Positions 17,460 through 40,393 of a stretch of 48,225 bases of DNA are shown piece by piece. The stretch lies in NCBI GenBank assembly GCA_013391385.1, contig JACBFI010000029.1, positions 1 through 48,225 of the forward strand, read 5' to 3'. Under the pieces are notes generated by a model. That model did no database searches and was not told the DNA's origin. It worked only from the letters and a program-made list of their open reading frames with translations. The stretch is from Sediminibacterium sp. Gen4 (GTDB lineage Bacteria; Bacteroidota; Bacteroidia; Chitinophagales; Chitinophagaceae). The position numbers were made by a program, and so were the translations under genes. Numbering within the stretch: position 1 is the first letter of the stretch; each line of letters opens with the position of its first letter.

Positions 17460-18236
17460 ATGAAAGCGGTAATACTTGCAGGAGGTTTAGGAACGCGTAT
17501 TTCTGAGGAAACACACCTGAAGCCTAAGCCTATGATTGAAATCGGTGGAATGCCAATTTTATGGCATATTATGAAAATATATTCTTCCCATGGTGTAAAC
17601 GACTTTATAATCTGCTGTGGTTATAAGGGATATGTAATCAAAGAATATTTCGCAAATTACTTTCTGCATATGTCAGATGTAACATTTGATATGCACCAGA
17701 ATAAAATGGAGGTGCATTTTCAGAAAGCAGAGCCATGGCGTGTTACCCTTATAGATACCGGTGCTGAAACTCAAACAGGAGGTAGGCTGAAAAGGGTTTA
17801 TGAGTACATAAAGGATGAAGAATGTTTCTGCTTTACTTATGGTGATGGATTGTCTGATGTAAATATTACAGACCTGATCAACTTCCACAAAAAACATGGC
17901 AAGCTGGCCACAGTAACAGCAGTTCAACCCCCGGGACGTTATGGTGCATTGAACATACAGGGCGATAACAATGTTTCCGGTTTTTTGGAGAAGCCGAAAG
18001 GTGAAGGAGGGTATATCAACGGGGGGTATTTTGTATTGTCTCCAAAATGTGTTTCGCTTATAGAAGGCGACGACACTCCGTGGGAGATAGTTCCGCTTTC
18101 TACACTGGCTACTGATGGACAACTACAGGCTTATGAACACAACCGGTTCTGGCAGGCTATGGATACACTTAGGGAAAAAATGCTACTTGAAGAACTATGG
18201 ACTTCTGGCAAAGCGCCATGGAAAAACTGGAAATAA
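17460..18236 (+). CDS. rfbF: Glucose-1-phosphate cytidylyltransferase
   Basis: RfbF (DdhA) makes CDP-glucose from CTP and glucose-1-phosphate, the entry to CDP-3,6-dideoxyhexoses. The 258 residues begin MKAVILAGGLGTRISEETHL, followed by KPKPMIEIGGMPILWHIMK, the ICCGYKGYVIKEYF segment, TGGRLKRV and FCFTYGDGLSDV with the metal-binding Asp. The Gly-rich start with RISEET distinguishes it from thymidylyl- and uridylyltransferases. It starts six bases after the epimerase and is followed by rfbG and rfbH in the order seen in classical dideoxyhexose clusters. Confidence 0.97.
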   Translation: MKAVILAGGLGTRISEETHLKPKPMIEIGGMPILWHIMKIYSSHGVNDFIICCGYKGYVIKEYFANYFLHMSDVTFDMHQNKMEVHFQKAEPWRVTLIDTGAETQTGGRLKRVYEYIKDEECFCFTYGDGLSDVNITDLINFHKKHGKLATVTAVQPPGRYGALNIQGDNNVSGFLEKPKGEGGYINGGYFVLSPKCVSLIEGDDTPWEIVPLSTLATDGQLQAYEHNRFWQAMDTLREKMLLEELWTSGKAPWKNWK

Positions 18237-18243
18237 AAATAAG

Positions 18244-19302
18244 ATGAACAAATCATTGCTTGATTTTTTTAGTGGTAAGAAAGTATTTATTACAGGTCAT
18301 ACCGGTTTTAAAGGGTCTTGGCTGAGCTACCTGCTCAGCGAACATGGTGCAATCGTAAAAGGGTATTCAAAAGCCCCCAACACCGATCCTAATTTATTCG
18401 ACCTTCTCGGACTGGAGAATAAAGTGGAATCTTCTATCAATGATATCAACGATTTTGTGAAGCTCAAGAAGGCAATTCTCGATTTTGAACCAGAATTTAT
18501 CCTACACCTAGCGGCACAACCGCTAGTAAGGTATTCCTATAAAAACTCGTTGGAAACACACCAGACTAATATCGTCGGTACAGCCAACGTATTGGAAGCT
18601 GCGCGAAAATTGAAAAACGTTTGTTCAGTTATATGTGTAACAACCGATAAAGTGTATAAAAACAAAGAATGGGAATTTCCTTACCGCGAAATAGATGAGT
18701 TGGGTGGGTATGATCCTTACAGTTCGAGTAAGGCTGCAGCAGAGTTAATCATTTCATCTTATCGCGAATCATTTTTTCAACAGGGACATGTGCAGATCGC
18801 AAGTGTGAGGGCTGGGAATGTGATTGGTGGCGGCGATTGGTCTGAAGACAGGTTGATCCCCGATATCGTCAGGTCTATAGCAAAAGGCGAACGTGTGGAA
18901 ATAAGGAATCCGAACGCCATTAGGCCGTGGCAGCATGTGCTGGACCCGCTTTTTGGATACCTGAAATTGGCCATGTTGATGCACAAGGAACCGCGGCGTT
19001 ATGACCAAGCCTGGAATTTTGGTCCAAAGAGCAACGAAGTCAAATCTGTTTTAGATGTTGTAAATGTGTTTTATGCAACAAACGATATGGAGGTAGACTA
19101 CCAGCTCAGTATACAGGATAAAATGCATGAAGCAGGAATTTTAAAACTCGACATTTCAAAATCTTCCGTGTTCCTAGGCTGGACTCCGATTTTGAATTCT
19201 CAGCAAGCAATTGAAACAACCGCCAGATGGTACAGGTCTTTTCTTGCGGAAGTGCCAGCGGAGGAATTGGTAAAACAGGATATCAGCCTTTTTATAAAAT
19301 AG
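18244..19302 (+). CDS. rfbG: CDP-glucose 4,6-dehydratase
   Basis: RfbG (DdhB) converts CDP-glucose to CDP-4-keto-6-deoxyglucose with bound NAD. The 352 residues from MNKSLLDFFSGKKVFITGHT show the GHTGFKGSW nucleotide loop (18-26), HLAAQPLVRYSYKNSLETHQ, VTTDKVYKN with the catalytic Thr-Asp-Lys, and PYSSSK with Tyr159 and Lys163. RAGNVIGGGDWSEDRLIPD is typical of this enzyme. A longer frame reaches back into rfbF to 18115, but the extension has no family counterpart. The ATG at 18244, seven bases after rfbF, is preferred. Confidence 0.97.
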   Translation: MNKSLLDFFSGKKVFITGHTGFKGSWLSYLLSEHGAIVKGYSKAPNTDPNLFDLLGLENKVESSINDINDFVKLKKAILDFEPEFILHLAAQPLVRYSYKNSLETHQTNIVGTANVLEAARKLKNVCSVICVTTDKVYKNKEWEFPYREIDELGGYDPYSSSKAAAELIISSYRESFFQQGHVQIASVRAGNVIGGGDWSEDRLIPDIVRSIAKGERVEIRNPNAIRPWQHVLDPLFGYLKLAMLMHKEPRRYDQAWNFGPKSNEVKSVLDVVNVFYATNDMEVDYQLSIQDKMHEAGILKLDISKSSVFLGWTPILNSQQAIETTARWYRSFLAEVPAEELVKQDISLFIK

Positions 19303-19307
19303 AATCT

Positions 19308-20618
19308 ATGAATTTTGATTACAAGAACATTGTATCCGACTCTTTGCGTAATGAGCTATCTGCCATTATAGCAAATAACGTTTCCCAAAAGATAGTTCCG
19401 GGTGTTAATTACATTCCTGTAACAGGGAAAGTAATAGATGTTGATGATATCTTGCACGGTGTTGACGCAACCCTCGATTCGTGGTTAACAGCTGGTCGTT
19501 ATTCGCAGGAGATGGAAAGAGAACTGGCGCGTTACTTTGGCAGCCGTTTCTCGTTTCTCGTTAATTCCGGTTCATCTGCGAACCTCCTTGCTTTTTATGC
19601 ATTAACCTCTCCAAAACTCATTGACAGGGCGATCAGGCCTGGTGATGAAATTATTACCGTGGCGGCAGGATTTCCTACTACCATTAACCCGATGATACAA
19701 TTCGGCTGTATCCCGGTTTTCATAGATGTTGATATACCTACCTACAATATCAAGGCTGATGAAATAGAAAGAGCCATTACATCCAAAACCAAAGCGATCA
19801 TGATCGCTCACGCGCTCGGTAATCCTTTTGATCTGAAAACGGTAATGGAAATTGCACGCAAATACAATCTCTGGGTTATCGAGGACGATTGCGATTCACT
19901 TGGAGCGACCTACAACGGGAAGAAGACAGGAACGTTCGGCGACCTTGCCACACTTTCTTTTTACCCGGCTCACCATATCACGATGGGAGAAGGGGGGGCT
20001 GTATTGGTTAACAATGCTAAACTCAAAAAAATTACCGAAAGTTTCCGTGATTGGGGACGTGATTGCTGGTGTGCTCCTGGAAAAGACAATACATGCGGAG
20101 AAAGGTTTTGCCAGAAACTTGGTGAACTGCCTGAAGGATACGATCATAAATACACTTATTCGCATATCGGCTTTAACCTGAAAGTTACCGATACGCAGGC
20201 GGCAATCGGGCTTAATCAGCTTCGCAAAGCAGATCATTTTGTAAAAAGAAGACGCGAAAATCACGCAATGCTTTACCAGAAAATGAAATCGCTGGAAGAA
20301 CATTTCATTCTTCCCGAAGCTACCCCTAACGCGGATCCTAGTTGGTTTGGATTTATGCTTACAGTGAGACCTGGCTCGCCTATTTCAAGAAATAAACTTG
20401 TCAATCAACTCGAAGACAATAAAATCGGAACCAGACTGTTTTTCGGCGGTAACCTTCTCAAGCAACCCGCATACTCCAATATCAATTGCAGGAAAATGGA
20501 TGACCTAGCGAACACAGACCTTATCATGAACAATTCATTCTGGTTAGGTGTTTGGCCGGGCCTCAAAGAAAATCACTACGATTACATCGTTGAAAAAATC
20601 AATCAATTAATTAAATAG
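19308..20618 (+). CDS. rfbH: CDP-6-deoxy-D-xylo-4-hexulose-3-dehydrase (E1)
   Basis: RfbH (DdhC/AscC, E1) removes the C3 hydroxyl of CDP-4-keto-6-deoxyglucose using PMP and an iron-sulfur cluster, giving CDP-4-keto-3,6-dideoxyglucose after reduction. The 436 residues show the hallmark change: in SFYPAHHITMGEGG a His (His222) replaces the Lys that holds PLP in ordinary aminotransferases. A Cys-rich insert RDCWCAPGKDNTCGERFC (Cys253, 255, 263, 268) supplies cluster ligands. The frame extends back to 19227, but ATG at 19308 gives the family N-terminus. The partner reductase E3 (DdhD/AscD) is not in the window. Confidence 0.96.
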   Translation: MNFDYKNIVSDSLRNELSAIIANNVSQKIVPGVNYIPVTGKVIDVDDILHGVDATLDSWLTAGRYSQEMERELARYFGSRFSFLVNSGSSANLLAFYALTSPKLIDRAIRPGDEIITVAAGFPTTINPMIQFGCIPVFIDVDIPTYNIKADEIERAITSKTKAIMIAHALGNPFDLKTVMEIARKYNLWVIEDDCDSLGATYNGKKTGTFGDLATLSFYPAHHITMGEGGAVLVNNAKLKKITESFRDWGRDCWCAPGKDNTCGERFCQKLGELPEGYDHKYTYSHIGFNLKVTDTQAAIGLNQLRKADHFVKRRRENHAMLYQKMKSLEEHFILPEATPNADPSWFGFMLTVRPGSPISRNKLVNQLEDNKIGTRLFFGGNLLKQPAYSNINCRKMDDLANTDLIMNNSFWLGVWPGLKENHYDYIVEKINQLIK

Positions 20619-20624
20619 TATAAA

Positions 20625-22385
20625 ATGAATCATCAAGTTTTTGTTGAAAATTGCAGAAATGAGTTTTCTTTTTTAAAGAACCCAGATAACATTTCAAATT
20701 TACTTGCTTCGCATGTGCAGGTTATTAATGGTGGTTACCTTGTTCCTTTAACAGGGATACATCTCAATAACGATGAAATACTGGAATCACTTTGGTCATG
20801 GCGCGAAGAACATTATTACGCATACCCTTCAAGAAATAAAACGACAATCGAAAGCACCCGTAATTGGATTCAGAAAGCTGTTATCGATAACCCTGACAGG
20901 ATTTTGTTCCTGATTTATGATGAACGGCAGAAATTCGTTGGTCATGCAGGTTTTGCAGATGCTGGCAATGCGGATTGTGAACTTGAATTCGACAATATTC
21001 TTCGTGGCGATAAAACTGCGAGGAAAGGATTGATGGCAGATGTGATGGCAACACTCGAAAATTGGGCAAGAACAGTATTGTTTCCGAACGGTTTTTACCT
21101 GCGTGTGCTGGAAAGCAACAAACATGCAGTGACATTCTACAATAAAATTGGATTTGTTGAAAGCTCCAAATATGGATTGGTAAGAGAAGATGTTGAGAAT
21201 GGATACAGGCTGATTAAAGCTGCTGAAGCTGACCAACTTGCAGACAGCTTTATCGTTATGAAACCTGCTTTGAAAACAAATGCCGGTAAAAAAATGATCC
21301 TGACCGCCGGCCCTTCGATCGGCAGCAGGGAGAAAGTATATGCGCTTGATGCAGCAACAAAAGGATGGAACAATGAATGGAGTAAGTATCTCACATTGTT
21401 CGAAAAAAAATTCGCAGAGTACGTAGGCGTTAAATATGCAATCGCTACATCTTCTTGCACAGGTGCCTTACATATCTCACTAAATGCATTGGGCATAGGA
21501 CCTGGTGACGAAGTAATCGTTCCTGAAGTTACATGGGTTGCAAGTGCAAACGCGATCAGGTACGTGGGAGCTACTCCGGTGTTTGCAGATGTTGACAAAA
21601 ACACGTGGAATGTTTCTGCGGAATCGATCAGAAGTTTGATCAATGAGAGGACCAAAGCAATAATTCCAGTACACCTTTATGGAAACCCTTGTGATATGGA
21701 CCCTATTATGCAGATCGCAAAAGAGAATAACCTCTATGTTGTAGAAGATGCTGCACCATCTATCGGCGCAGAATACAAAGGTAAAAAAACAGGGTCGTTC
21801 GGACATTTCGCTGCATTCAGCTTCCAGGGAGCAAAACTGGCGGTAACAGGAGAAGGCGGGATGATCTGTACAAATGATGATGAGCTTTACAAAAAGGCCT
21901 ACCGTATATGGGACCAGGGAAGAATACCAGGAACATTCTGGATTGAAGAACTGGGTGTGAAATATAAAATGTCGAATATACAGGCGGCATTGGGATTAGG
22001 CCAATTAATGAGGAACGATGCGATGGTTGAAGCAAAACGCAGAATCAACGAATGGTACAAAGCCAGGCTCGGAAACATATCTCAACTCGATTTCTGGCAG
22101 GAAGAAGCTGATTCAAAATGTATTTATTGGATGACCAATATCCGCCTCAACGAAAATGCAACTATTTCCCGAGATGAGTTTTGTAAGAGATTAAAAGAAA
22201 ACAACGTAGATACAAGACCTGTCTTCCCTCCTATCAGCCAATATCCTTACTGGCCTAAAAAGCAGGACCCACAACCTGTGGCAAATGAAGTAGGTGTTAC
22301 CGGGATCAACCTGCCCAGCGGTGTAGGGCTTACTAAGGAAGAAGTGGAATATGTATGTGATAAAATCATTGAAATCTTAAAATAA
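20625..22385 (+). CDS. Fusion of GNAT N-acyltransferase and DegT/DnrJ sugar aminotransferase
   Basis: The protein has 586 residues in two domains. Residues 1 to about 215 look like a GNAT acetyltransferase (WSWREEHYYAYPSRNKTT early, FVGHAGFADAGNADCELEFD, then FYLRVLESNKHAVTFYNKIG with the typical N..A..FY.K.GF end). Residues about 222-586 are a PLP-dependent sugar aminotransferase (EVIVPEVTWVASANAIRYVG, VVEDAAPSIGAEYKGKKTGS, and FSFQGAKLAVTGEGG with the PLP lysine Lys404). It should transfer an amino group to a keto sugar and then acylate it. It sits between rfbH and a split transketolase, so the substrate is probably CDP-linked. Separate genes are the usual arrangement; the fusion is unusual. 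Confidence 0.88.
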   Translation: MNHQVFVENCRNEFSFLKNPDNISNLLASHVQVINGGYLVPLTGIHLNNDEILESLWSWREEHYYAYPSRNKTTIESTRNWIQKAVIDNPDRILFLIYDERQKFVGHAGFADAGNADCELEFDNILRGDKTARKGLMADVMATLENWARTVLFPNGFYLRVLESNKHAVTFYNKIGFVESSKYGLVREDVENGYRLIKAAEADQLADSFIVMKPALKTNAGKKMILTAGPSIGSREKVYALDAATKGWNNEWSKYLTLFEKKFAEYVGVKYAIATSSCTGALHISLNALGIGPGDEVIVPEVTWVASANAIRYVGATPVFADVDKNTWNVSAESIRSLINERTKAIIPVHLYGNPCDMDPIMQIAKENNLYVVEDAAPSIGAEYKGKKTGSFGHFAAFSFQGAKLAVTGEGGMICTNDDELYKKAYRIWDQGRIPGTFWIEELGVKYKMSNIQAALGLGQLMRNDAMVEAKRRINEWYKARLGNISQLDFWQEEADSKCIYWMTNIRLNENATISRDEFCKRLKENNVDTRPVFPPISQYPYWPKKQDPQPVANEVGVTGINLPSGVGLTKEEVEYVCDKIIEILK

Positions 22386-22389
22386 AAAT

Positions 22390-23199
22390 ATGTCGTCAAG
22401 TGCAGATCTGGCGCAGAAAATCAGGCAACACATTGTAAGAATGGTCCATAACTCAGGTGGCTCACATCTTGCCAGTGCTCTCTCAATTGTAGATATTGTT
22501 AGTGTGCTATATAATGAAGTGCTCAAGTTCGATTCCGGTAATCATCAGTGGAGTGAAAGAGACAGGTTTATCCTCAGCAAGGGGCATGGTTGTACTCCTA
22601 TATACGCCGCTCTCGCTGAGTCTGGTTTTTTCCCAGTAACGGATCTTGACACCTACGGAAAAAATTCATCTATTCTGATGAATCATATCAGTCATAAGGT
22701 ATCAGGGGTAGAGTTTTCTACTGGAGCGCTTGGGCATGGTTTGCCGTTTGGTGTTGGTAAAGCCAAAGCTGCTAAAATGAGTAAACAGTCATGGAATACT
22801 TATGTGGTACTCAGCGATGGAGAACTTGATGAAGGGTCAAACTGGGAAGCTTTTATGTTCGCTGCTCACCACAAGCTTGATAACCTGACTGCGATCATCG
22901 ACTATAATAAACTGCAAAGCCTCGATACTGTTGAGAATACATTGAATCTTGAGCCCCTTTATTCCAAACTAAAGTCTTTCGGTTGGGCAGTTTACGAAGT
23001 AGATGGTCATGACCATGGGCAACTGGCAAAGACCTTACCTCTATTGAATGAAGGAAAGCCCAAAGTAATCATCGCTCATACAACAAAAGGCAAAGGTGTC
23101 AGCTTTATGGAACACAAAGTAGAATGGCACTACAAAACGCCGAATGTTAACGAATTAGCAGACGCACTGGCTGAAATACAACAAAAAAAATCAAAATGA
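22390..23199 (+). CDS. Transketolase-like protein, N-terminal (TPP-binding) subunit
   Basis: This is the pyrophosphate-binding half of a split transketolase, 269 residues. It shows RDRFILSKGHGCTPIYAALA, SGVEFSTGALGHGLPFGVGK, and the TPP motif SDGELDEGSNWEA...DYNKLQ (the leading Gly is Ser here). KVIIAHTTKGKGVSFMEHK and WHYKTP follow, as in transketolases. It overlaps the C-terminal half by four bases (ATGA), which implies translational coupling and a heterotetramer. Its place after rfbFGH and an aminotransferase points to a role in sugar-nucleotide chemistry, such as transfer of a two-carbon ketol to a keto sugar. A role in the pentose pathway is less likely. Confidence 0.92.
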   Translation: MSSSADLAQKIRQHIVRMVHNSGGSHLASALSIVDIVSVLYNEVLKFDSGNHQWSERDRFILSKGHGCTPIYAALAESGFFPVTDLDTYGKNSSILMNHISHKVSGVEFSTGALGHGLPFGVGKAKAAKMSKQSWNTYVVLSDGELDEGSNWEAFMFAAHHKLDNLTAIIDYNKLQSLDTVENTLNLEPLYSKLKSFGWAVYEVDGHDHGQLAKTLPLLNEGKPKVIIAHTTKGKGVSFMEHKVEWHYKTPNVNELADALAEIQQKKSK

Positions 23200-24083
23200 G
23201 AAACGCTTTTATCGACGAGCTGGTTAAACAAGCCCGGGAAAATGAAAAGATAGCGCTTGTTGTGGGAGACCTCGGATATAAGGTGGTTGAACCATTCGCC
23301 ACCGCGTTTCCTGAAAGATTTATTAATGCTGGGGTAGCCGAGCAAAATATGACAGGTCTTGCAGCAGGATTGGCATCAGAAGGGTTTCATGTATTTACCT
23401 ATTCGATTGCAAACTTTCCAACTTTCAGGTGTGCGGAGCAGATCAGGAACGATATAGACTATCATCAGTTGCCTGTAACAGTTGTTACCGTAGGTGGTGG
23501 GCTTGCCTATGGAAACTTGGGTTATTCGCATCACGCAATTCAGGATTATGCGCTGATACGGACAATGCCGAATATGTTAATCGCTTCTCCCGGCGACCCT
23601 CTCGAAGTGAGAGCTACTTTACAATACCTGGTAGACCATCCGCAACCATCTTATCTTAGATTGGGAAAAGCAGGTGAGCCAAATTTCAATAGCACAATAC
23701 CGGTTGTTAAGCCCGGAGAGTGGGTCTCTATTCATAAGGGCGACGAAGACAAATGTATCCTTTGTACAGGTGCCACGATCAACCTAGCTATGGAATGGCT
23801 GAAAACAGAAGCGTATGAAAACTACTCTATATACTCGTTGCCCCTGTGGAGTATGGCTTCAAAAGAAATGCAGGCTGAAAAAGCAATGCAATTCTCTAAA
23901 ATAGTAACAATAGAAGATCACCTGGCAGATGGTGGTTTTGGTTCGTGGTTCCTAGAATCCTGCTACCCGCTGATCAGAACACATAACCTTGACATAACAT
24001 GCAAAGCACTTGACAGAAAAGTGTGTGGAATGGTGGGCACGCAAGGTTACCTGAATCACATGGGTGGAATAGCGGTAAAGTAA
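23196..24083 (+). CDS. Transketolase-like protein, C-terminal subunit
   Basis: The second half of the split transketolase, 295 residues, carries the pyrimidine-binding domain and the C-terminal domain. Features are ALVVGDLGYKVVEPFATAFP, NAGVAEQNMTGLAAGLASEG with the conserved Glu that activates TPP, and GNLGYSHHAIQDYALIRTMP. The C-terminal segment KIVTIEDHLADGGFGSWFLE is typical. The start codon overlaps the stop of the N-terminal half. Together the halves give about 560 residues, shorter than housekeeping transketolase. It is the last gene of the putative CDP-sugar cassette. Confidence 0.92.
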   Translation: MRNAFIDELVKQARENEKIALVVGDLGYKVVEPFATAFPERFINAGVAEQNMTGLAAGLASEGFHVFTYSIANFPTFRCAEQIRNDIDYHQLPVTVVTVGGGLAYGNLGYSHHAIQDYALIRTMPNMLIASPGDPLEVRATLQYLVDHPQPSYLRLGKAGEPNFNSTIPVVKPGEWVSIHKGDEDKCILCTGATINLAMEWLKTEAYENYSIYSLPLWSMASKEMQAEKAMQFSKIVTIEDHLADGGFGSWFLESCYPLIRTHNLDITCKALDRKVCGMVGTQGYLNHMGGIAVK

Positions 24084-26880: not shown

Positions 26881-27285
26881 ATGGAACTACAAATTCTCCA
26901 GCTGCCTAAGTTCGAAGATCCCCGTGGTAACCTGTCGTTTATTGAAGAAGGTAAACACATTGAGTTTACCATACAACGTACTTATTGGATTTACGATGTG
27001 CCGGGTGGGCAGGTTCGCGGTGGCCATGCCTTTAAGAAACAGCACGAACTTATCGTGGCGCTTTCCGGGAGTTTTGATGTAGAGGTAGACAACGGGGAAA
27101 AAAAGGAGAATTTTTCACTCAGCCGTTCTTACTACGGGTTATATATTCCTGCCGGATTGTGGAGACAGATGCAGAATTTTTCTACCAACTCAGTTGCCTT
27201 GGTGTTGAGTTCCACTCATTATGATGAGAATGATTATATCTACGATTATTCAGATTTTCTAAAATACCGGAACATCCATGGCTAG
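26881..27285 (+). CDS. FdtA/WxcM-like cupin, isomerase-like with a replaced histidine
   Basis: A 134-residue cupin of the FdtA/QdtA family, which isomerises dTDP-4-keto-6-deoxyglucose to the 3-keto sugar. The core reads RTYWIYDVPGGQVRGGHAFK. In FdtA-type enzymes the motif is normally GGHAH, with two histidines (His49 and His51 in the characterised FdtA). Here the second is Phe51. The protein may therefore have altered chemistry or stereochemistry, or serve as a non-catalytic partner. It overlaps the next gene, an intact paralogue, by eight bases. Both belong to a tightly coupled block ending with an FdtB-like aminotransferase. Confidence 0.85.
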   Translation: MELQILQLPKFEDPRGNLSFIEEGKHIEFTIQRTYWIYDVPGGQVRGGHAFKKQHELIVALSGSFDVEVDNGEKKENFSLSRSYYGLYIPAGLWRQMQNFSTNSVALVLSSTHYDENDYIYDYSDFLKYRNIHG

Positions 27286-27691
27286 CAGCGTTTACGATTG
27301 CAGTGTTTTACCACTCAGCAAAATTCACAACCGTGCAGGAAATATTACGGTGATAGAAGGCGACCACAGTGTGCCTTTTCCCATTAAAAGGATCTACTAC
27401 CTTTACGATATACCCAGCGGCGAAACACGTGGCGGTCACGGACACAAAGAACTGTATCAGCTTATTGTTGCCGCCAGCGGCTCATTTGATGTGGTGCTCG
27501 ATGATGGCAGGAACAAGAGAATTGTTACTCTTAACAGACCCGATTATGGATTGATGGTTGTTCCCGGAATATGGAGGGAATTGCTAGAGTTTTCTTCGGG
27601 GGCTATATGTCTGGTAATGGCCTCCGAAATTTATACAGAATTGGATTATATAAGGGAATACAAAGATTTTATCGCTTATAAGAATGCTTGA
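27278..27691 (+). CDS. fdtA: dTDP-6-deoxy-3,4-keto-hexulose isomerase (FdtA/QdtA-like)
   Basis: A 137-residue cupin, paralogue of the preceding gene, with the complete motif YLYDIPSGETRGGHGHKELY including His54 and His56. It should convert dTDP-4-keto-6-deoxyglucose to a dTDP-3-keto-6-deoxyhexose. Its configuration at C4 (galacto as in FdtA, gluco as in QdtA) cannot be read from the sequence. The substrate would come from rfbA/rfbB at 6.9-8.8 kb. It overlaps the gene before by eight bases and the gene after by eight bases, a sign of translational coupling. Confidence 0.88.
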   Translation: MASSVYDCSVLPLSKIHNRAGNITVIEGDHSVPFPIKRIYYLYDIPSGETRGGHGHKELYQLIVAASGSFDVVLDDGRNKRIVTLNRPDYGLMVVPGIWRELLEFSSGAICLVMASEIYTELDYIREYKDFIAYKNA

Positions 27692-28619
27692 GATTATTAA
27701 ATATACTGCGGCGCATAAGAAGCAGTGGGACGAACTGGTTGCCGCCTCGAAAAATGGAACTTTCCTTTTCCTCAGGGACTATATGGACTATCATGCCGAC
27801 CGGTTTACCGACGCATCATACATGCTTCTGCGCAAAGGCAAAATGGAAGCGCTTCTTCCGGGTAATATCAAAGATAAAAGTTACTATTCGCATCAGGGAT
27901 TAACTTACGGTGGGTGGGTCAGTTCCACCAAACTGGCTGCAACGGAGATTGTAGAAGCCTTTCAACTGCTCAACAGCGAGCTTGCAACTGCCGGGGTGGA
28001 TGAGGTGATTTATAAACCGGTGCCGCTTATCTATCACCAGGTTCCGGCGCAGGAAGATCTGTATGCCTTGTTCTTGAACAAAGCAGAAAAAATTGCATGT
28101 CATATCTCTTCCACTATTTATCAAAACAACAAACCACGTTTTATTGAATCGCGCAAAAGCGGTATTCGCAAAGCGGTGAGGGAAGGCGTAAAGATATCCG
28201 AAACAACGGATTTTGCGGCATTCTGGAATATTCTTGAGAACAATCTCGGTAATAAGTTCAATACCAAACCTGTTCACTCTCTTGAAGAAATTGAACTGCT
28301 AAGCGGCCGGTTCCCTAGCAATATCAAATTGTATCTGGCTCATCAGAATGGAGAAGCAGTGGCTGGAACAGTACTTTATGTAATGAAGAATATCATACAT
28401 GTACAATATATCTCTGCAAGCCTGGTCGGTAAGGAATGCGGTGCATTGGATTTGCTGTTTGATCAATTGATCAACCAAACATTTGCTGCTGTGCCTGTAT
28501 TCGATTTCGGACAGTCGACAGAGCAAATGGGAAATTATCTCAATGAGAACCTGATCTTCCAGAAAGAAGGCTTTGGCGGACGCGGCATAGTATATGAGGC
28601 ATACCGCTATAGCATATGA
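27684..28619 (+). CDS. FemAB/GNAT-like acyltransferase
   Basis: A 311-residue cytoplasmic protein with a double-GNAT, FemABX-like layout. The N-terminal half has NGTFLFLRDYMDYHADRF and KSYYSHQGLTYGGWV. The C-terminal half has RKSGIRKAVREGVKI, LYLAHQNGEAVAGTVLYVMK, and FDFGQSTEQMGNYLNENLIF, as in acyltransferases of the GNAT/FemAB family. It lies between the FdtA-like isomerases and a GNAT, overlapping both neighbours by a few bases. A role in adding an acyl or aminoacyl group to the amino sugar is likely, but the donor is unknown. Confidence 0.7.
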   Translation: MLEIIKYTAAHKKQWDELVAASKNGTFLFLRDYMDYHADRFTDASYMLLRKGKMEALLPGNIKDKSYYSHQGLTYGGWVSSTKLAATEIVEAFQLLNSELATAGVDEVIYKPVPLIYHQVPAQEDLYALFLNKAEKIACHISSTIYQNNKPRFIESRKSGIRKAVREGVKISETTDFAAFWNILENNLGNKFNTKPVHSLEEIELLSGRFPSNIKLYLAHQNGEAVAGTVLYVMKNIIHVQYISASLVGKECGALDLLFDQLINQTFAAVPVFDFGQSTEQMGNYLNENLIFQKEGFGGRGIVYEAYRYSI

Positions 28620-29080
28620 CAACGAAAGATACATCGCTGAGTCTTGTCGCATACGACCCAACTTTCCTGGAACTTTCCTGGAATTGGCTCAACGATTCTG
28701 AAATAAAGAAAATGACCCATACGCCCGATTTTACACGTGATGAGCAACATGCATGGTTTGCAGGATTGGCTAGTAAAACGGACTATAAAATATGGGGTCT
28801 GCAATACAACGGTAAACCTATCGGCGTTTGCGGGTTAAAGAAGATCACAGGTACCGATGCAGAATACTGGGGCTATATTGGTGAAAAGCAGTATTGGGGT
28901 ATCGGGTTGGGTAGCGCGATTTTGCAACTTATAGAAAGCGAGGCAGCAAAAGCCGGACTGTATTCTGTATGGCTGAGTGTAATTCCAGAAAACATCCGTG
29001 CAATCCGTCTTTACCGGAAAAACGGGTACACTGAAGAAAATCAACAAGGTGATTTACTTATAATGCGAAAAAGAATATGA
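28616..29080 (+). CDS. GNAT family N-acetyltransferase
   Basis: A 154-residue single-domain GNAT resembling RimJ/RimL and PseH-type enzymes. [19 protein letters not shown] is at the start, [10 protein letters not shown] in the middle, [18 protein letters not shown] as the acetyl-CoA loop, and [16 protein letters not shown] near the end. It probably N-acetylates the 3-amino group made by the next gene, giving dTDP-Fuc3NAc or dTDP-Qui3NAc. It overlaps both neighbours in ATGA fashion (28616-28619 and 29077-29080). Known FdtC/QdtC acyltransferases are hexapeptide-repeat proteins, so this is a non-homologous replacement if the inference is right. Confidence 0.85.
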
Positions 29081-30198
29081 TCAAATTTTTAGATCTCAAA
29101 AAAATCAACGACAGTTTCGAGCCTGAACTATCACAGGCAATACAGAATGTACTAAATTCAGGCTGGTATTTAACCGGGGGAGAGAACAAGGCTTTTGAAG
29201 AAGAGTTTGCAGCCTTTGTAGGCACCAAACATGCCATAGGCGTAGCTAACGGTCTTGATGCACTCCGGCTGATATTAAAAGCGTATATGGAGATGGGGCT
29301 AATGAACGAAGGAGATGAGATCATTGTACCGGCTAACACGTTCATCGCCTCAGTGTTGGCTATATCCGATAACAAGCTTGTGCCGGTATTGGTTGAGCCA
29401 GAGCCAAGCAGTTTTAATCTGGACGCGTCGAAGATTGAAAAATATATAAACCCACGTACAAGGGCCATTATGCTCGTTCACCTGTACGGGCAGAACGCTA
29501 TGAATCCTGGCATACAGGAAATTATCGACAGGCATAAACTTAAGCTCATAGAAGACAGCGCCCAGTCTATCGGGGCTGTGTATGGTGGCAGGAAAACCGG
29601 TGCTTTGGGGCATGCATCAGGCCATAGTTTTTACCCCGGGAAAAACCTGGGTTGCCTTGGCGACGGTGGAGCTGTAACTACTAACGATGATGAACTGGCA
29701 ACATTGATCCGCACTCTCGCCAACTACGGGTCAAAGAAAAAGTACCATTGTGAACATAAGGGTCTCAATTCACGGCTCGATGAGATACAGGCAACAATTC
29801 TTCGCGTGAAACTTAAAAGACTTAACGCAGATAACAAACGCCGCCGCGAAATTGCGCAATATTATATTTCTAATATCAAGAATCCACATATTATACTACC
29901 GGCGCTTACTGATGCAACCGCGGTGGCAGAAAATGAAACAGCTGTTTGGCATCTTTTTGTGATCCGCTCCGCCAAGCGTGAAGCCCTTCAATCTTTTCTT
30001 ACAGAAAATGGCGTGCAAACTTTGATACACTATCCTATTCCGCCACATAAACAGGAGGCATATCGGGAAATGAACGGTTTAAGTTTCCCTGTTACTGAAC
30101 AAATACATGCCGAGGTGTTAAGCCTACCGATTAGCCCGGTGATGGAGGATGAAGAAGTTAAAATAGTAGTTGACGTTGTCAACAGATTTCAAGCGTGA
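29077..30198 (+). CDS. fdtB: dTDP-3-amino-3,6-dideoxyhexose aminotransferase (FdtB/QdtB-like)
   Basis: A PLP-dependent sugar aminotransferase of 373 residues, transferring an amino group from glutamate to C3 of the 3-keto sugar made by FdtA. Motifs include [67 protein letters not shown] and [18 protein letters not shown], where Lys189 is the PLP lysine. The [20 protein letters not shown] and HYPIPPHKQ segments are typical of the FdtB/QdtB branch. It closes a five-gene block in which every junction overlaps. Confidence 0.9.
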
Positions 30199-32544: not shown

Positions 32545-34416
32545 ATGTGCGGCATTAGTGGTATTATAAGTCAGTATAATGAAGAAGCAAGGAAGGAGTC
32601 TGTTCTAATAATGAATCAAGCGATATTTCATCGTGGCCCTGATGAAGATGGTATGTATTCTGATAATTATTGTACGCTAGCAATGCGTAGGCTCTCTATT
32701 ATCGATCTTAATACTGGCAAGCAACCTCTATATTCTACCTGTGGTGAGTATTTAATCTTCTTCAATGGTGAAATATACAATTACCGAGAACTTAAAGGAG
32801 AGCTTGTAAATGAAGGGTACACTTTTAAAAGTAACTCTGATACAGAGGTTGTAGTGAATATGTATAAACATTTTGGAAAGTCAATGCTCTTGAGACTAAA
32901 AGGAATGTTTGCATTCTGTATTTATCATATTACTACCAAAAAATTCTTTTTTGCTCGAGATAGGTTTGGTGAGAAACCCTTTTTTTATAGTCAGAATGAA
33001 AAGGGGTTTGTTTTCAGTTCTGAATTAGGGGCACTGTTGAGTTGTGCTATAGAACCCCCAAAACTTAATCATGGTAAACTGTCGGAATATCTTTATGCAG
33101 GTTATGTAAAAGAACCTTATACATTAGTTCAAGGTGTATACAGTCTTCAACCTGGGTACTTTTTAGAGCTTGATGAAAATCAAAAAATTATTTCTCAACC
33201 CTATTTTAAAGTACAATATACAATTGATAACAATATTAAGAGTATCCAAGATGCCGCAGATCTTGTAAAGCCATATTTCCAGAATGCGGTAAATCGTCAA
33301 ATGATCAGTGATGTTCCTATAGGAGCATTTTTATCTGGAGGGATTGATTCTAGTTCGGTCGTAGCAATGATGTCGCTACTTAGTAGCAAACCTGTAAGTA
33401 CGTTTACAGTAAAGTTTAAAACCGCTGGTTATGATGAGAGCCAAATAGCTTCATTAGTGGCTAAAAAATTCAATACCGACCACCATGAGATCACGGTGGA
33501 GAATAATAATTTTAGTGAAGAGCGGTTTTGGCGAATACTTAGACATGTAGGGCACCCGTTCCCTGATTCCTCTGCGATACCTACTGATATTGTGACAAGC
33601 GAAATTTCAAAATATGTAAAAGTGGCATTATCCGGCGATGGTGGGGATGAAGTATTTGGAGGATATACAGTTTTTGATTGGTATTCAAAAATTTACTCGA
33701 TAAGAAAATTACCTTCATTTATTCGGAACTCGTCATATGAGATTTTACAATTAGTAAATAAAAAACTCAATAACAATAAAGTTAGACAACTAACAAAAGC
33801 ATTAAACATCGCTTCTTTGCCATTTGAAGAAGGGTTTCATGAAACTCATGCCTTATTTGATAGTAAAGAAGTAAAACAGCTTTTTGATAGTAATGAAATT
33901 ATTAGATTTGATTACAATGATCAACCGTCGCTGCTTAGATCAATGATGCTTTATCGTATTAAATATGATCTTCCTCTTGATATGTTGGTTAAAGTAGATA
34001 GAATGAGTATGGCCAACTCATTAGAAGTTCGTGCCCCTTTCTTAGATCCTGATCTTTTTGATATCAGTTGTACGATTCCAGATCAATTTCTAAGAGGTGG
34101 GGGTTTAGGTAAGTTGGTTGTTAGGAAGATGATGGAGCATGATTTACCTGATGAGGTGTTCAATCATCCGAAGTCTGGCTTTAGTATTCCACTCCATGAT
34201 TTTAAAAATGAAGAGTTTAAACAGCTAGCAACCCAACTGATGAGTGAGTCTGTGATGAAACAACTGTTTGACGAAACAAGGTTACATAAAATACTACAAA
34301 TAGGATTATCAAGTAAGACCAATGATTCTGCTGGGAGTATCTACAGAAAGACACACCAACTTTGGAGTTTAATGATGTTATCAGGATGGATTAAGATGTA
34401 CAAAATAGAACTATAA
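32545..34416 (+). CDS. asnB: Glutamine-hydrolysing asparagine synthase-like amidotransferase 1
   Basis: A 623-residue AsnB-type protein. The glutaminase domain starts with the nucleophile Cys2 (MCGISGIISQYNEEARKESV) and has HRGPDEDG and FNGEIYNYREL. The synthetase domain has the PP-loop SGGIDSSS (264-271) and ALSGDGGDEVFGGY. All catalytic landmarks are present. In surface-glycan clusters such proteins (for example WbpS) amidate sugar carboxyl groups instead of aspartate. With UDP-HexNAcA enzymes at 15.1-17.5 kb, a uronamide is a reasonable prediction. It is one of two AsnB homologues flanking a glycosyltransferase. Confidence 0.92.
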   Translation: MCGISGIISQYNEEARKESVLIMNQAIFHRGPDEDGMYSDNYCTLAMRRLSIIDLNTGKQPLYSTCGEYLIFFNGEIYNYRELKGELVNEGYTFKSNSDTEVVVNMYKHFGKSMLLRLKGMFAFCIYHITTKKFFFARDRFGEKPFFYSQNEKGFVFSSELGALLSCAIEPPKLNHGKLSEYLYAGYVKEPYTLVQGVYSLQPGYFLELDENQKIISQPYFKVQYTIDNNIKSIQDAADLVKPYFQNAVNRQMISDVPIGAFLSGGIDSSSVVAMMSLLSSKPVSTFTVKFKTAGYDESQIASLVAKKFNTDHHEITVENNNFSEERFWRILRHVGHPFPDSSAIPTDIVTSEISKYVKVALSGDGGDEVFGGYTVFDWYSKIYSIRKLPSFIRNSSYEILQLVNKKLNNNKVRQLTKALNIASLPFEEGFHETHALFDSKEVKQLFDSNEIIRFDYNDQPSLLRSMMLYRIKYDLPLDMLVKVDRMSMANSLEVRAPFLDPDLFDISCTIPDQFLRGGGLGKLVVRKMMEHDLPDEVFNHPKSGFSIPLHDFKNEEFKQLATQLMSESVMKQLFDETRLHKILQIGLSSKTNDSAGSIYRKTHQLWSLMMLSGWIKMYKIEL

Positions 34417-35550: not shown

Positions 35551-37455
35551 ATGTGCGGAATAGTTGGTGGAATTGGTAACATTCAAGGTGATACAGGGTC
35601 AATACTAGAACTAATATCTCATAGAGGTCCGGATTCTTCTGGCTATTATGTGCAGCAGAATTTTTTTTTAGGTCATACAAGACTAGCGATACAAGATTTA
35701 TCAGAAAATGGGAATCAACCTATGTTTTCTACTGATAATCGTTATGTTATCATTTTTAATGGTGAGATTTATAATCACCATGAAATAAGAACTGAAATTA
35801 AAGAGGAGTTTGATTTTAGGTCTTCAGGAGATACCGAGACAGTCCTTAACGCATACATAAAATATGGTATTTCATTTTTGAATAGGCTAAATGGAATTTT
35901 TGCATTTGCTATTTATGATAAAAAAGAAGATGAAATATTGATTGCCCGCGATCAGTTTGGAGTAAAGCCTTTATATATTTATCAAGATGATGATATTCTG
36001 TTATTCGGGTCAGAAATAAAAACCTTTTTACCAAGCACCATAAACAAAGAGTTATCTCCTGCTGCATTCACCAATTATCTTGAATTTTTATGGTCTCCGG
36101 GGGAACTAACCCCCTTTACTTATGTAAAAAAGTTATTACCAGGACATTGTTTAAAGTTTAAGCTTTCTGATTATAAAAATGCGAAGTCAGTAAAATATTA
36201 TCAGTGGATTGTTCCGGAGAAATCAACTGACATACCAGAAAATACATTGGTTGACATATTGGAGGAGAAATTATTAAAGGCAGTAGATCGTCAAATGTTA
36301 TCAGATGTGCCAGTCGGTTTTTTTCTTTCCGGAGGATTAGATTCTAGCTTATTGGTTGCCATCGCCAGAAAGCTATATCCAGATCGGAAATTCACGTGTT
36401 TTACTATTGATGTAGGTAACTGGGGTGCGGGTATAGAAGATTTTGCTGATGATCTCCAATATGCTAAAAAAGTCGCAGAAACACTTCAAGTTGATTTAAA
36501 GATTATCAAAGCAGATATTGATATTGTTCAAATGTTTGATAAAATGATCTGGCATTTGGACGAACCCCAGGCTGATGCAGCACCTTTAAATGTACTGAAT
36601 ATTGCTCAACTTGCTCGGGAGAATGGTATTAAAGTATTGATTGGCGGGGCAGGGGGAGATGATATTTTTTCGGGATACAGAAGACATCAGGCATTGCGGT
36701 ATGAAAAATATTTTCAGCGCTTACCCATTATTTTCAGAAAACTTATTCAGCTAATTGTTCAACAATTTCCTTCTAATAAACCTTTGTTTAGACGGATAAA
36801 AAAAATACTTTCAGCCATTGATAAATCACCTCTTGAAAGGCAAGCAGGATATTTTGGCTGGCTGCCAACAGACGTAGTTAAATCCCTATTTTCTGAAGAA
36901 TGGAAAATAAAACTAAATCATTATGATCCCTATGATTATTTCTATCAGTTGGCAAAACAGTTACCTGAAGATTCAGATGTACTCTCAAGAATGTTATATT
37001 GGGAGTTAAAGACTTTTTTGGTAGATCATAATTTGAATTATACTGATAAAATGGCGATGGCTGTTGGTGTGGAAGCACGAGTACCATACTTAGATATGGA
37101 GTTAGTAGCGTTTTCAAAAATAATTCCGTCAGATTTGAAAATGAAAGGAAAGGAGGCAAAATATATACTCAAAAAGGTTGCTGAAAGATACCTCCCTATG
37201 GATGTTATTTATAGACCCAAAACCGGATTCGGTGCTCCAGTTAGACAATGGATCACGAAGGATCTTCAGCCTATGATTGAGGATCGACTGTCTCCCGATC
37301 GTTTGCGTAAACGTGGTATTTTCGATGCTGAGAAAGTGTGGGATTTGATAGAGGCAAATAAAGCAGGTAAAATAGATGCCTCTTATTCAATTTGGTCTCT
37401 TCTAGCGATAGAGAGTTGGTTAACCCAATTTGTTGATGCGGACAAATATTCATAA
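35551..37455 (+). CDS. asnB: Glutamine-hydrolysing asparagine synthase-like amidotransferase 2
   Basis: A second complete AsnB-type protein, 634 residues. It has Cys2 (MCGIVGGIGNIQGDTGS), a short SHRGPDSSG and FNGEIYNHHEI glutaminase signature, the PP-loop SGGLDSS (260-266) and LIGGAGGDDIFSGYRRHQ. The C-terminus has RPKTGFGAPVRQWI, typical of this family. It is clearly diverged from the first copy at 32545, so it is not a recent duplicate. It may amidate a different carboxyl group or act at a different sugar. No residue was seen that would disable it. Confidence 0.92.
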   Translation: MCGIVGGIGNIQGDTGSILELISHRGPDSSGYYVQQNFFLGHTRLAIQDLSENGNQPMFSTDNRYVIIFNGEIYNHHEIRTEIKEEFDFRSSGDTETVLNAYIKYGISFLNRLNGIFAFAIYDKKEDEILIARDQFGVKPLYIYQDDDILLFGSEIKTFLPSTINKELSPAAFTNYLEFLWSPGELTPFTYVKKLLPGHCLKFKLSDYKNAKSVKYYQWIVPEKSTDIPENTLVDILEEKLLKAVDRQMLSDVPVGFFLSGGLDSSLLVAIARKLYPDRKFTCFTIDVGNWGAGIEDFADDLQYAKKVAETLQVDLKIIKADIDIVQMFDKMIWHLDEPQADAAPLNVLNIAQLARENGIKVLIGGAGGDDIFSGYRRHQALRYEKYFQRLPIIFRKLIQLIVQQFPSNKPLFRRIKKILSAIDKSPLERQAGYFGWLPTDVVKSLFSEEWKIKLNHYDPYDYFYQLAKQLPEDSDVLSRMLYWELKTFLVDHNLNYTDKMAMAVGVEARVPYLDMELVAFSKIIPSDLKMKGKEAKYILKKVAERYLPMDVIYRPKTGFGAPVRQWITKDLQPMIEDRLSPDRLRKRGIFDAEKVWDLIEANKAGKIDASYSIWSLLAIESWLTQFVDADKYS

Positions 37456-38266: not shown

Positions 38267-40393
38267 ATGAAGCAAATAATACAAGACCTAAAGAAAGGTG
38301 ATACAATACTAGAAGAAATCCCTATGCCAATTGTAAGAAGAGGAACCGTGTTAATTAAAACACACCGTTCTCTTGTTTCATTAGGTACAGAAAAAATGCT
38401 TAAGGAGTTTGGTAAAGGGAATTTGATCACAAAAGCTCGTCAGCAACCTGACAAAGTAAAACAAGTATTAGATAAGATTAAGACAGAAGGATTGATGCCG
38501 ACTTTAGAAGCTGTATTTAATAAGTTGGGAGAACCTTTGCCGCTTGGTTATTGTAATGCAGGTGAAGTGATTGCTGTAGGTGAGGGGGTTACGGAATTTT
38601 CTATTGGAGACAGGGTTGCTAGTAATGGACATCATGCAGAAGTTGTTTGTGTGCCGAAGAATCTGGTGGCTAAAATACCGGATAATGTTTCTTATGAAGA
38701 GGCTTCTTTTGCGGTGATTGGTTCTATTGGTTTACAGGGAATCCGTTTGGTAAATCCAACTTTGGGAGAAACGGTTGTAGTCATTGGTTTAGGGCTTATC
38801 GGTCTTCTCACATCAGAATTATTAGTAGCGAATGGATGTAATGTGATTGGTTTTGACTATGACCAACGAAAAGTAGATCTAGCACAACAAAAAGGTGTTC
38901 AGGCGTTTAATGCAGCAGATGTTGATGTAGTCAAAATAGTTGAATCACTTACCAATCAAATTGGAGCTGATGCAGTTTTAATTACAGCTTCTACCAGCAG
39001 TAATGATGTGATTAGTCAGGCTGCAAAAATGTCCCGAAAAAGAGGACGTATAGTTTTGGTAGGGGTGATTGGATTGGATATTAAAAGAGACGATTTTTAT
39101 AAAAAAGAATTGAGTTTTCAGGTCTCTTGTTCTTATGGTCCCGGCCGTTATGATGAAGACTATGAGCAAAAAGGGATGGACTATCCTATCGGATTTGTAA
39201 GATGGACTGAGAAGCGAAATTTTGAAACCATATTACAGGCTATTGCGAAACGTCGAATAACGGTTACAGATCTGATTACAGAAAGAGTGGCTTTGAAAGA
39301 TTACCTGAGTATTTATAATAATCTGGGTAAGGGTTCTATTGCTTCCATTTTAGAGTATACGCCTGATGAAGTTCAAGAAGCAAGATATGTTGAAGTTGTT
39401 ACCAAAAACTGGCAAGGAACTGGGAAGGGGGTAATTGGGATTATTGGTGCCGGTAATTTCACAAAGATGACAGTGATGCCTGCATTGAAAAATTCAGGTG
39501 CTCAATATAAATACATTTCCAGTGCCGGGGGTTTAACTGCTACATCTCTTGCAAAGAAGTATGGTATTGCGCAAGCAACTACTGATTACAGAATGATATT
39601 GGATGATCAGCATGTTGACTTGGTGATCATAACGACCCGACATGATCTGCATGCTAAAATGGTGACTGAGGCATTACAATCGGGCAAGCATGTATTTGTT
39701 GAAAAACCGTTGGCAATAGATCCTGATGGATTAGCTGCTATTATAGATACCTATCGTACTGTGAATAATGGTGCATCTGTGAACGTAGGGTTTAACCGTC
39801 GTTTTTCACCTTATGCCCAAAAGGCCAAGTCATTGATCGGGGAAGCAGGTGCTGATTTGAATATGATCGCTACTATGAATGCCGGTTTTATACCCAAAGA
39901 TGTTTGGGTACAAGACATGAAAACAGGTGGAGGGCGTATTATTGGTGAAGCTTGTCACTTTATTGACTTGATGCAGTTTTTCTCCGGTAGCCAAGTGAGT
40001 ACGGTGGTAATGAGTGGTTTAGGGGTGCATCCGGAAGAGAATACAGATAACGCTATTATTACGCTTCGATTTGAAAATGGGGCACAAGGGGTAATTCATT
40101 ATTTTTCGAATGGCAGTAAATCCTATCCTAAGGAAAGAATTGAATTGTACACACAAGGCAGAACTTTGGTGATTGACAATTTCAGAAAGATGAGTGGGTA
40201 CGGATTCGGGCGATTCTCATCGATGCGTTCCGGATTGGACAAAGGCCATAAAACGCAGTTTAAAACTTTGGTAGACAATATTAAAACAACAGGTCACCCC
40301 TTGATTCCTTTTGAAGACATTGTTAATACAACAAAAGCTTCTTTTGCAGCGCTGGAAAGTTTAAGAACAGGCAGCTGGGTTCAGATACAATAA
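38267..40393 (+). CDS. Bi-domain oxidoreductase: zinc-type alcohol dehydrogenase fused to Gfo/Idh/MocA
   Basis: The protein has 708 residues. The first half (about 1-360) is an MDR alcohol-dehydrogenase fold with PLPLGYCNAGEVIAVGEGV, IGDRVASNGHHAEVVCVP and GLGLIGLLTSELLVANG. The second half (about 385-708) is a Gfo/Idh/MocA dehydrogenase with VIGIIGAGNFTKMTVMPAL (Gly-rich loop near 393) and HVFVEKPLAIDPDGL, where EKP is at 479-481. Two NAD(P)-binding domains in one chain suggest two linked redox steps on a sugar. Such fusions occur in O-antigen and exopolysaccharide clusters, next to WecB and heparinase-like genes as here. The exact reaction is unknown. Confidence 0.9.
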   Translation: MKQIIQDLKKGDTILEEIPMPIVRRGTVLIKTHRSLVSLGTEKMLKEFGKGNLITKARQQPDKVKQVLDKIKTEGLMPTLEAVFNKLGEPLPLGYCNAGEVIAVGEGVTEFSIGDRVASNGHHAEVVCVPKNLVAKIPDNVSYEEASFAVIGSIGLQGIRLVNPTLGETVVVIGLGLIGLLTSELLVANGCNVIGFDYDQRKVDLAQQKGVQAFNAADVDVVKIVESLTNQIGADAVLITASTSSNDVISQAAKMSRKRGRIVLVGVIGLDIKRDDFYKKELSFQVSCSYGPGRYDEDYEQKGMDYPIGFVRWTEKRNFETILQAIAKRRITVTDLITERVALKDYLSIYNNLGKGSIASILEYTPDEVQEARYVEVVTKNWQGTGKGVIGIIGAGNFTKMTVMPALKNSGAQYKYISSAGGLTATSLAKKYGIAQATTDYRMILDDQHVDLVIITTRHDLHAKMVTEALQSGKHVFVEKPLAIDPDGLAAIIDTYRTVNNGASVNVGFNRRFSPYAQKAKSLIGEAGADLNMIATMNAGFIPKDVWVQDMKTGGGRIIGEACHFIDLMQFFSGSQVSTVVMSGLGVHPEENTDNAIITLRFENGAQGVIHYFSNGSKSYPKERIELYTQGRTLVIDNFRKMSGYGFGRFSSMRSGLDKGHKTQFKTLVDNIKTTGHPLIPFEDIVNTTKASFAALESLRTGSWVQIQ

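Follow-up and report, generated by a model that had tools for sequence, protein, structure and literature searches.

A split transketolase linked to CDP-dideoxyhexose genes: a candidate route to C4-branched, acylamino sugars of surface glycans

This study concerns a run of six genes in Sediminibacterium sp. Gen4 (Bacteroidota), carried on contig JACBFI010000029.1 of assembly GCA_013391385.1; the whole stretch of DNA analyzed, 48,225 nucleotides long, is referred to below as the window. Positions 17460-24083 hold six complete open reading frames (ORFs) in one direction, namely rfbF, rfbG, rfbH, a gene that fuses a GNAT acyltransferase domain to a DegT aminotransferase domain, and the two halves of a split transketolase, tkN and tkC. 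The first-pass annotation had described five closely spaced genes in one block; the compact block stands, while the count is corrected to six. Successive genes are separated by 7, 2, 6 and 4 bp, apart from tkN and tkC, which share 4 bp; with this spacing the block looks like one operon. For rfbG, the ATG at 18244 is the likely start and the mechanical ORF start at 18115 was set aside. The features, with the matches on which they were named, are as follows.

17460..18236, plus strand: rfbF (ddhA), glucose-1-phosphate cytidylyltransferase (TIGR02623, 452 bits, cut-off 300)
18244..19302, plus strand: rfbG (ddhB), CDP-glucose 4,6-dehydratase (TIGR02622, 467 bits, cut-off 278)
19305..20618, plus strand: rfbH (ddhC), CDP-4-keto-6-deoxyglucose 3-dehydrase (E1) (NF011936, 698 bits, cut-off 423)
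20625..21263, plus strand: GNAT N-acyltransferase domain of the fusion, about residues 1-213 (PF13302 and PF00583 matches)
21264..22385, plus strand: DegT aminotransferase domain of the fusion, about residues 214-586 (PF01041, 383 bits)
22390..23199, plus strand: tkN, N-terminal (thiamine diphosphate) half of the split transketolase (PF00456, 127 bits)
23196..24083, plus strand: tkC, C-terminal half of the split transketolase (PF02779, 91 bits)

The gene identities proposed earlier were borne out. RfbF, RfbG and RfbH, families that make CDP-4-keto-3,6-dideoxyglucose, all exceed the curated NCBIfam cut-offs by wide margins. The best match of RfbH in the PDB is 3bcx (554 bits); the stretch SFYPAHHITMGEGG is common to both, with a His at the aminotransferase Lys position, and RfbH keeps the C-x-C-x7-C motif of the solved E1 enzyme, whose Cys residues we take to be the [2Fe-2S] ligands. 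The fusion is a single ORF of 586 residues in which Pfam places the GNAT matches at residues 55-178 and DegT at 232-581. Its GNAT domain has a weak match to PseH (TIGR03585, 25 bits against a cut-off of 93) and is 35-41% identical to the GNAT parts of the four other fusions that we found, whereas the nearest PDB entries to its DegT domain are perosamine synthetases (331 bits). The catalytic Lys, in the motif SFQGAK, is kept in all five fusions (alignment A1 took four of them, L115 being left out). A search for the aminotransferase in 296 genomes of the phylum gave, the window aside, no DegT match above 44% identity. Finally, a split transketolase of known structure gives the best PDB matches of both halves, the N chain of 6yak for tkN (241 bits) and 6yaj for tkC (135 bits); the PF02780 match of tkC, at 23 bits, lies under its cut-off of 25.9.

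Relatives of tkN were collected from the contigs of 84,980 genomes, each standing for a different species, and the best 80 of 152 relatives were used; the search patterns recover only some relatives, so that the locus counts are lower bounds. Thirty-nine of these 80 (L085-L122 and L134), with tkN 54-66% identical to that of the window, form together with L075, from the phylum search, and the window itself a set of 41 close-tkN loci. Their hosts include beta-, gamma- and alphaproteobacteria, Magnetococcales, Nitrospina and Bacteroidota; within the 296 genomes of the phylum, just one besides that of the window has a tkN more than 51% identical (63%). At least one of rfbF, rfbG and rfbH is present at 37 of the 41 loci and all three at 31, the loci that have none being L107 (tkN at the contig end), L118 (a 3.3-kb contig), L121 and L122. 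Among the more distant tkN loci, which are the other 41 of the best 80 of 152, not one has an rfbF, rfbG or rfbH match above 29% identity. Since 37 of 41 close loci stand against 0 of 41 distant ones, the association of this transketolase with rfbF/G/H is beyond chance. Several gene orders are found: rfbH follows tkC at L119 and L120, and rfbFGH lies on the opposite strand at L108. At L121 the close tkN and tkC sit beside a DegT gene and a TylF-like methyltransferase gene, and at L122 beside a gene resembling that for glyceraldehyde-3-phosphate dehydrogenase and a sugar transferase gene; these two loci could possibly encode other sugars built by transketolase.

To describe the active site we use the numbering of E. 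coli TktA, to which the sequences were aligned. The window tkN keeps H26, H66, H100, D155, N185 and H261, and its tkC keeps R358, E411 and H473; eight of these residues are kept across all 41 close-tkN loci and the ninth, H473, in all 40 loci that are readable there (the tkC of L085 is cut). In the window, as in the same 40 loci, H461 is replaced by Gly, D469 by Leu (Met in L106) and R520 by Lys. The retained H26, H66, H100, H261 and H473 presumably hold the ketol donor, and the replaced H461, D469 and R520, which we take to be acceptor- and phosphate-binding residues, are present in E. coli TktA and, in the same alignment, in split transketolases such as those of Pedobacter (L148-L151). Residue S385 was dropped as evidence because its column shifts between alignments. 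On the trees, the module transketolases form a group of their own; one tree, used for mapping the finishing genes, held the 41 close-tkN sequences and 32 others, and a second was built from a hand-picked subset of 48 sequences. A further type of split transketolase with a catabolic look (L123-L131) has D469 to Leu, Q474 to His and R520 to Lys in common with the module, and falls on the module side of a branch with 99% Shimodaira-Hasegawa-like approximate likelihood ratio test (SH-aLRT) support that separates it from housekeeping transketolases.

We also compared the genes that accompany the transketolase. The 37 rfb-linked loci and L107 divide cleanly: 33 carry a short-chain dehydrogenase/reductase (SDR) and five the GNAT-DegT fusion (the window, L087, L101, L115 and L116), with no locus having both or neither. 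The sampled SDRs are, by Pfam, NAD-dependent epimerase/dehydratase proteins, and they mostly lie between rfbH or rfbG and tkN, which is the slot of the fusion. The exchange is clearest between L085 and L087, whose tkN proteins are 86% identical and are sisters on the tkN tree (100% SH-aLRT), while the gene between rfbH and tkN is an SDR in the first and the fusion in the second. The fusion is scattered on this tree, such that four changes are needed, two of them forced by strongly supported branches. In the window module itself none of the tested SDR classes, and so no YerF-like reductase, was detected; the GNAT-DegT gene is found instead. Most simply read, the ketone created by the transketolase would be the substrate of SDR and DegT alike. 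With the fusion standing where a reductase is otherwise found, amination would fall on the side-chain ketone rather than on C4; the first-pass annotation had allowed either site, and the second is now less favored. A gene for an FkbM-type methyltransferase stands between SDR and tkN at L096 and L105 (by Pfam) and at L109, L112, L114 and L134 (by tblastn), which suggests an O-methylated branched sugar at these loci.

The closest known system is the yersiniose pathway (DdhABC(D), YerE and YerF), in which, according to the part of a 2025 review that we cite here (PMC12247030), YerE, a thiamine diphosphate (ThDP) enzyme, takes activated acetaldehyde from pyruvate and adds it to CDP-3,6-dideoxy-4-keto-D-glucose, so that the product of the same acceptor set gains a two-carbon unit. 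We compared the two settings in Burkholderiales. Among 349 genomes, 44 have RfbH at E values up to 1e-100, and 45 loci, some on short contigs, were compared, the L096 locus being excluded. Four have a transketolase close to rfbFGH, 14 an acetolactate-synthase-like enzyme and 27 neither; L220, with its enzyme 5.9 kb off, was placed by hand among the 14, and L212 and L221, counted in the 27, have such matches 7.2 and 8.1 kb away. The label YerE-type was given to these enzymes from fold family and neighborhood, and the two proteins checked (L217 and L227) contain all three thiamine pyrophosphate (TPP)-enzyme Pfam domains. One reductase family, SDR308, occurs at seven of the 45 loci; the ThDP enzyme there is acetolactate-synthase-like in five and a transketolase in two. 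Under a fixed 6-kb rule it accompanies 6 of the 17 loci that have a ThDP enzyme and 1 of the 28 that lack one (Fisher p 0.008). Moving L220 by hand changes the counts to 7 of 18 and 0 of 27 (p 0.0007), both values being uncorrected for relatedness, and p is 0.0017 when L212 and L221 are moved as well. As SDR308 is common to both types of locus in the rfbFGH setting, the transketolase and the YerE-type enzyme look interchangeable. No match to a YerE-type enzyme lies within 6 kb at any of the 41 close-tkN loci, the window included. The lack of overlap between the 4 transketolase and 14 acetolactate-synthase-like loci of the 45 was considered as proof of mutual exclusion and rejected, the loci being too few.

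Based on these comparisons, we think it somewhat more probable than an even chance that the end product of the operon is a CDP-activated 3,6-dideoxyhexose, branched at C4 and bearing an N-acylated amino group, destined for the surface glycan that the surrounding genes encode. In this scheme RfbF, RfbG and RfbH would supply CDP-4-keto-3,6-dideoxyglucose. A tkN/tkC heteromer, standing in the place of YerE, would then transfer a two-carbon ketol unit to the ketone at C4. The unit would probably be hydroxyacetyl, with hydroxypyruvate or a ketose phosphate as its source, so that C4 would become a tertiary alcohol that bears the hydroxyacetyl as a branch. In most relatives the SDR would reduce the new branch ketone; in the window DegT would transaminate it to a 1-amino-2-hydroxyethyl branch, whose amine the fused GNAT domain would acylate, probably with acetyl, before a nearby glycosyltransferase uses the CDP-sugar. 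The ketol addition at C4 had been put forward in the first-pass annotation, and at the level of sequence it gains support from the rfbFGH linkage, the sharing of SDR308 and the changes in the acceptor pocket. Unlike in yersiniose, the expected branch is hydroxyacetyl and not acetyl, and the window would aminate and acylate it instead of reducing it.

Several observations weigh against this proposal. The E3 reductase DdhD has no match in the window and only a generic best match of 51 bits in the window genome, although among the 41 close-tkN loci, too, no more than 8 have a DdhD match within 7 kb. Gly at position 461 is also seen in transketolases of other settings (L037, L132, L050 and L157). 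Many contigs are short, so absences from loci are weak evidence; the SDR354 and SDR347 classes behind the reductase count were assigned with loose thresholds, down to 26% identity; the SDR308 gene follows tkC, outside the slot of the fusion, in 12 of the 33 SDR loci; and an unrelated TviC-like SDR lies directly upstream of rfbF in the window. The SDR308-paired Burkholderiales transketolases (L203 and L241) belong to a more distant subgroup in which H100 is Leu, and are perhaps a second recruitment with another donor; L241 holds two transketolases. Also to be counted here is that, at 98% completeness, the window genome shows no further transketolase above 24 bits, through either a gap or true loss of the gene, and this leaves a small probability of a housekeeping role. 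Strong transketolase matches are present in 11 of the 12 other genomes of the genus that were searched.

The split enzyme could simply be the pentose-phosphate transketolase of the genome, trapped in a glycan operon; it is the sole PF00456 gene above 24 bits there, and many split transketolase N-halves were found in the phylum. We hold this to be highly improbable: E. coli TktA and the split enzymes of Pedobacter have the three acceptor residues, all of which are replaced here, and on these replacements a pentose-phosphate role was rejected. Halves confined to pentose-pathway substrates, the outcome that the first-pass annotation had named as telling against its scheme, are likewise argued against by the replacement of these residues in 40 of 40 readable loci. 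In addition, the module sequences stand as a separate group, and at least two PF00456 matches are found in 33 of the 35 module genomes searched (35 of the 39 close-tkN loci of the best 80, with L109, L118, L121 and L122 left out), so that another transketolase is available there. A different arrangement, that rfbFGH and the transketolase/DegT/GNAT set serve two different sugars side by side, would fit the mosaic nature of glycan clusters, the second amino-sugar set nearby in the window and the occurrence of close tkN without rfbFGH at L121 and L122; we consider it very unlikely, since the linkage is kept across distant taxa in several gene orders (L119/L120, L108).

The remaining alternatives concern the chemistry. 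DegT could aminate C4 directly and GNAT acylate the product to a linear 4-acylamino-3,4,6-trideoxyhexose, with the transketolase serving another step or sugar. Perosamine synthetases, the nearest solved relatives of DegT, aminate C4, and at one Burkholderiales locus (L223, genome G656) a DegT gene without GNAT lies between rfbF and rfbG and is followed by rfbH, with no transketolase or GNAT match. This locus possibly encodes such a direct C4 amination; a related aminotransferase can therefore sit in an rfbFGH setting without branching, which also tells against our proposal. Set against it are the replacement of SDR by the fusion in transketolase loci, as in L085 and L087 with their 86% identical tkN, the transketolase-rfb linkage at 37 loci of which 32 lack the fusion, the location of all five fusions in transketolase loci (four of them, though, were found via tkN), and the lack of a full-length fusion in 398 other Burkholderiales genomes, the center genome itself aside. 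Direct C4 amination is thus, in our judgment, unlikely. A branch made from another donor, such as acetyl from pyruvate or a longer ketol, would give an aminated yersiniose-like or longer branched sugar; the remodeled acceptor pocket would be compatible with this, and donor length is described as varying among sugar-branching ThDP enzymes, ErwE for example, in the portion of the review consulted here (PMC12247030). The window enzyme nevertheless keeps all five of the residues assigned above to the ketol donor, and we regard such a donor as distinctly unlikely. A hydroxyacetyl branch aminated at its own ketone is the reading that we retain.

Other genes of the window lie beyond the module. A second amino-sugar set at 26881-30198 includes an FdtA-family gene (PF05523), a DegT aminotransferase, a neighbor at 27278-27691 that resembles FdtA by appearance, an ORF that looks GNAT-like, and a 311-residue protein for which no Pfam match was found. 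Two asparagine-synthase-like proteins (PF00733 with a glutamine amidotransferase domain) are encoded at 32545-34416 and 35551-37455 in one glycan cluster, and a 708-residue fusion of a zinc alcohol dehydrogenase-like half to a GFO/IDH/MocA half at 38267-40393. A plasmid search returned no place covering 80% of the query.

Partial precedents exist for the individual steps. Where an acceptor ketone is concerned, the L123-L131 type may be relevant: we take these, with reserve, to be possibly apulose-4-phosphate transketolases, enzymes that join a ketol unit to the ketone dihydroxyacetone phosphate, and if that is what they are they provide a precedent for a ketone acceptor. They differ in context, L124 lying beside isomerase-like, apiosidase-like and glycerol-kinase-like proteins and an ATP-binding cassette (ABC) transporter and not beside glycan genes, surroundings that could fit apiose use. 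The sections of the review drawn on here state that hydroxyacetyl transfer to keto sugars has been proposed for miharamycin and amipurimycin and is still unproven, and that a bioinformatic study listed 13 putative split-gene transketolases, all from Streptomycetes and none assayed (PMC12247030). Those Streptomyces enzymes belong to antibiotic clusters, whereas the loci described here are CDP-dideoxyhexose glycan operons of other phyla. For the amination, the same sections give a precedent in kibdelomycin, where the branch ketone is transaminated; the alphaKADH2 enzymes of aldgamycin and kibdelomycin are likewise two-subunit ThDP enzymes, but they use pyruvate as donor, belong to the alpha-keto acid dehydrogenase family and make antibiotic sugars, and no GNAT fusion is noted in those sections (PMC12247030).

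Among the open-licence papers that our searches brought up, judged by titles and the starts of abstracts, none describes a transketolase in an rfbFGH glycan cluster. The best-supported reading of the genes is that an enzyme of another class carries out a yersiniose-like branching and that the branch is finished as an acylamino group. By a slight balance of probability, we speculate that the loci represent undescribed and widespread CDP-sugar pathways for Gram-negative surface glycans, in which ketone-accepting split transketolases would make 4-C-(hydroxyacetyl) dideoxyhexoses and an exchangeable finish would follow: reduction, reduction with an FkbM methyltransferase, or, for the window, amination followed by acylation, which would yield a 4-C-(1-acylamino-2-hydroxyethyl)-3,6-dideoxyhexose. 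The formation of chiral tertiary alcohols from ketones by transketolases is described as still pending in section 2.3 of the review (PMC12247030); if our reading is true, the loci, some of them in named strains, would offer ready candidates for that reaction. Several branched surface sugars would then be predictable from gene content, and one sugar backbone would be diversified by swapping the finishing enzyme.

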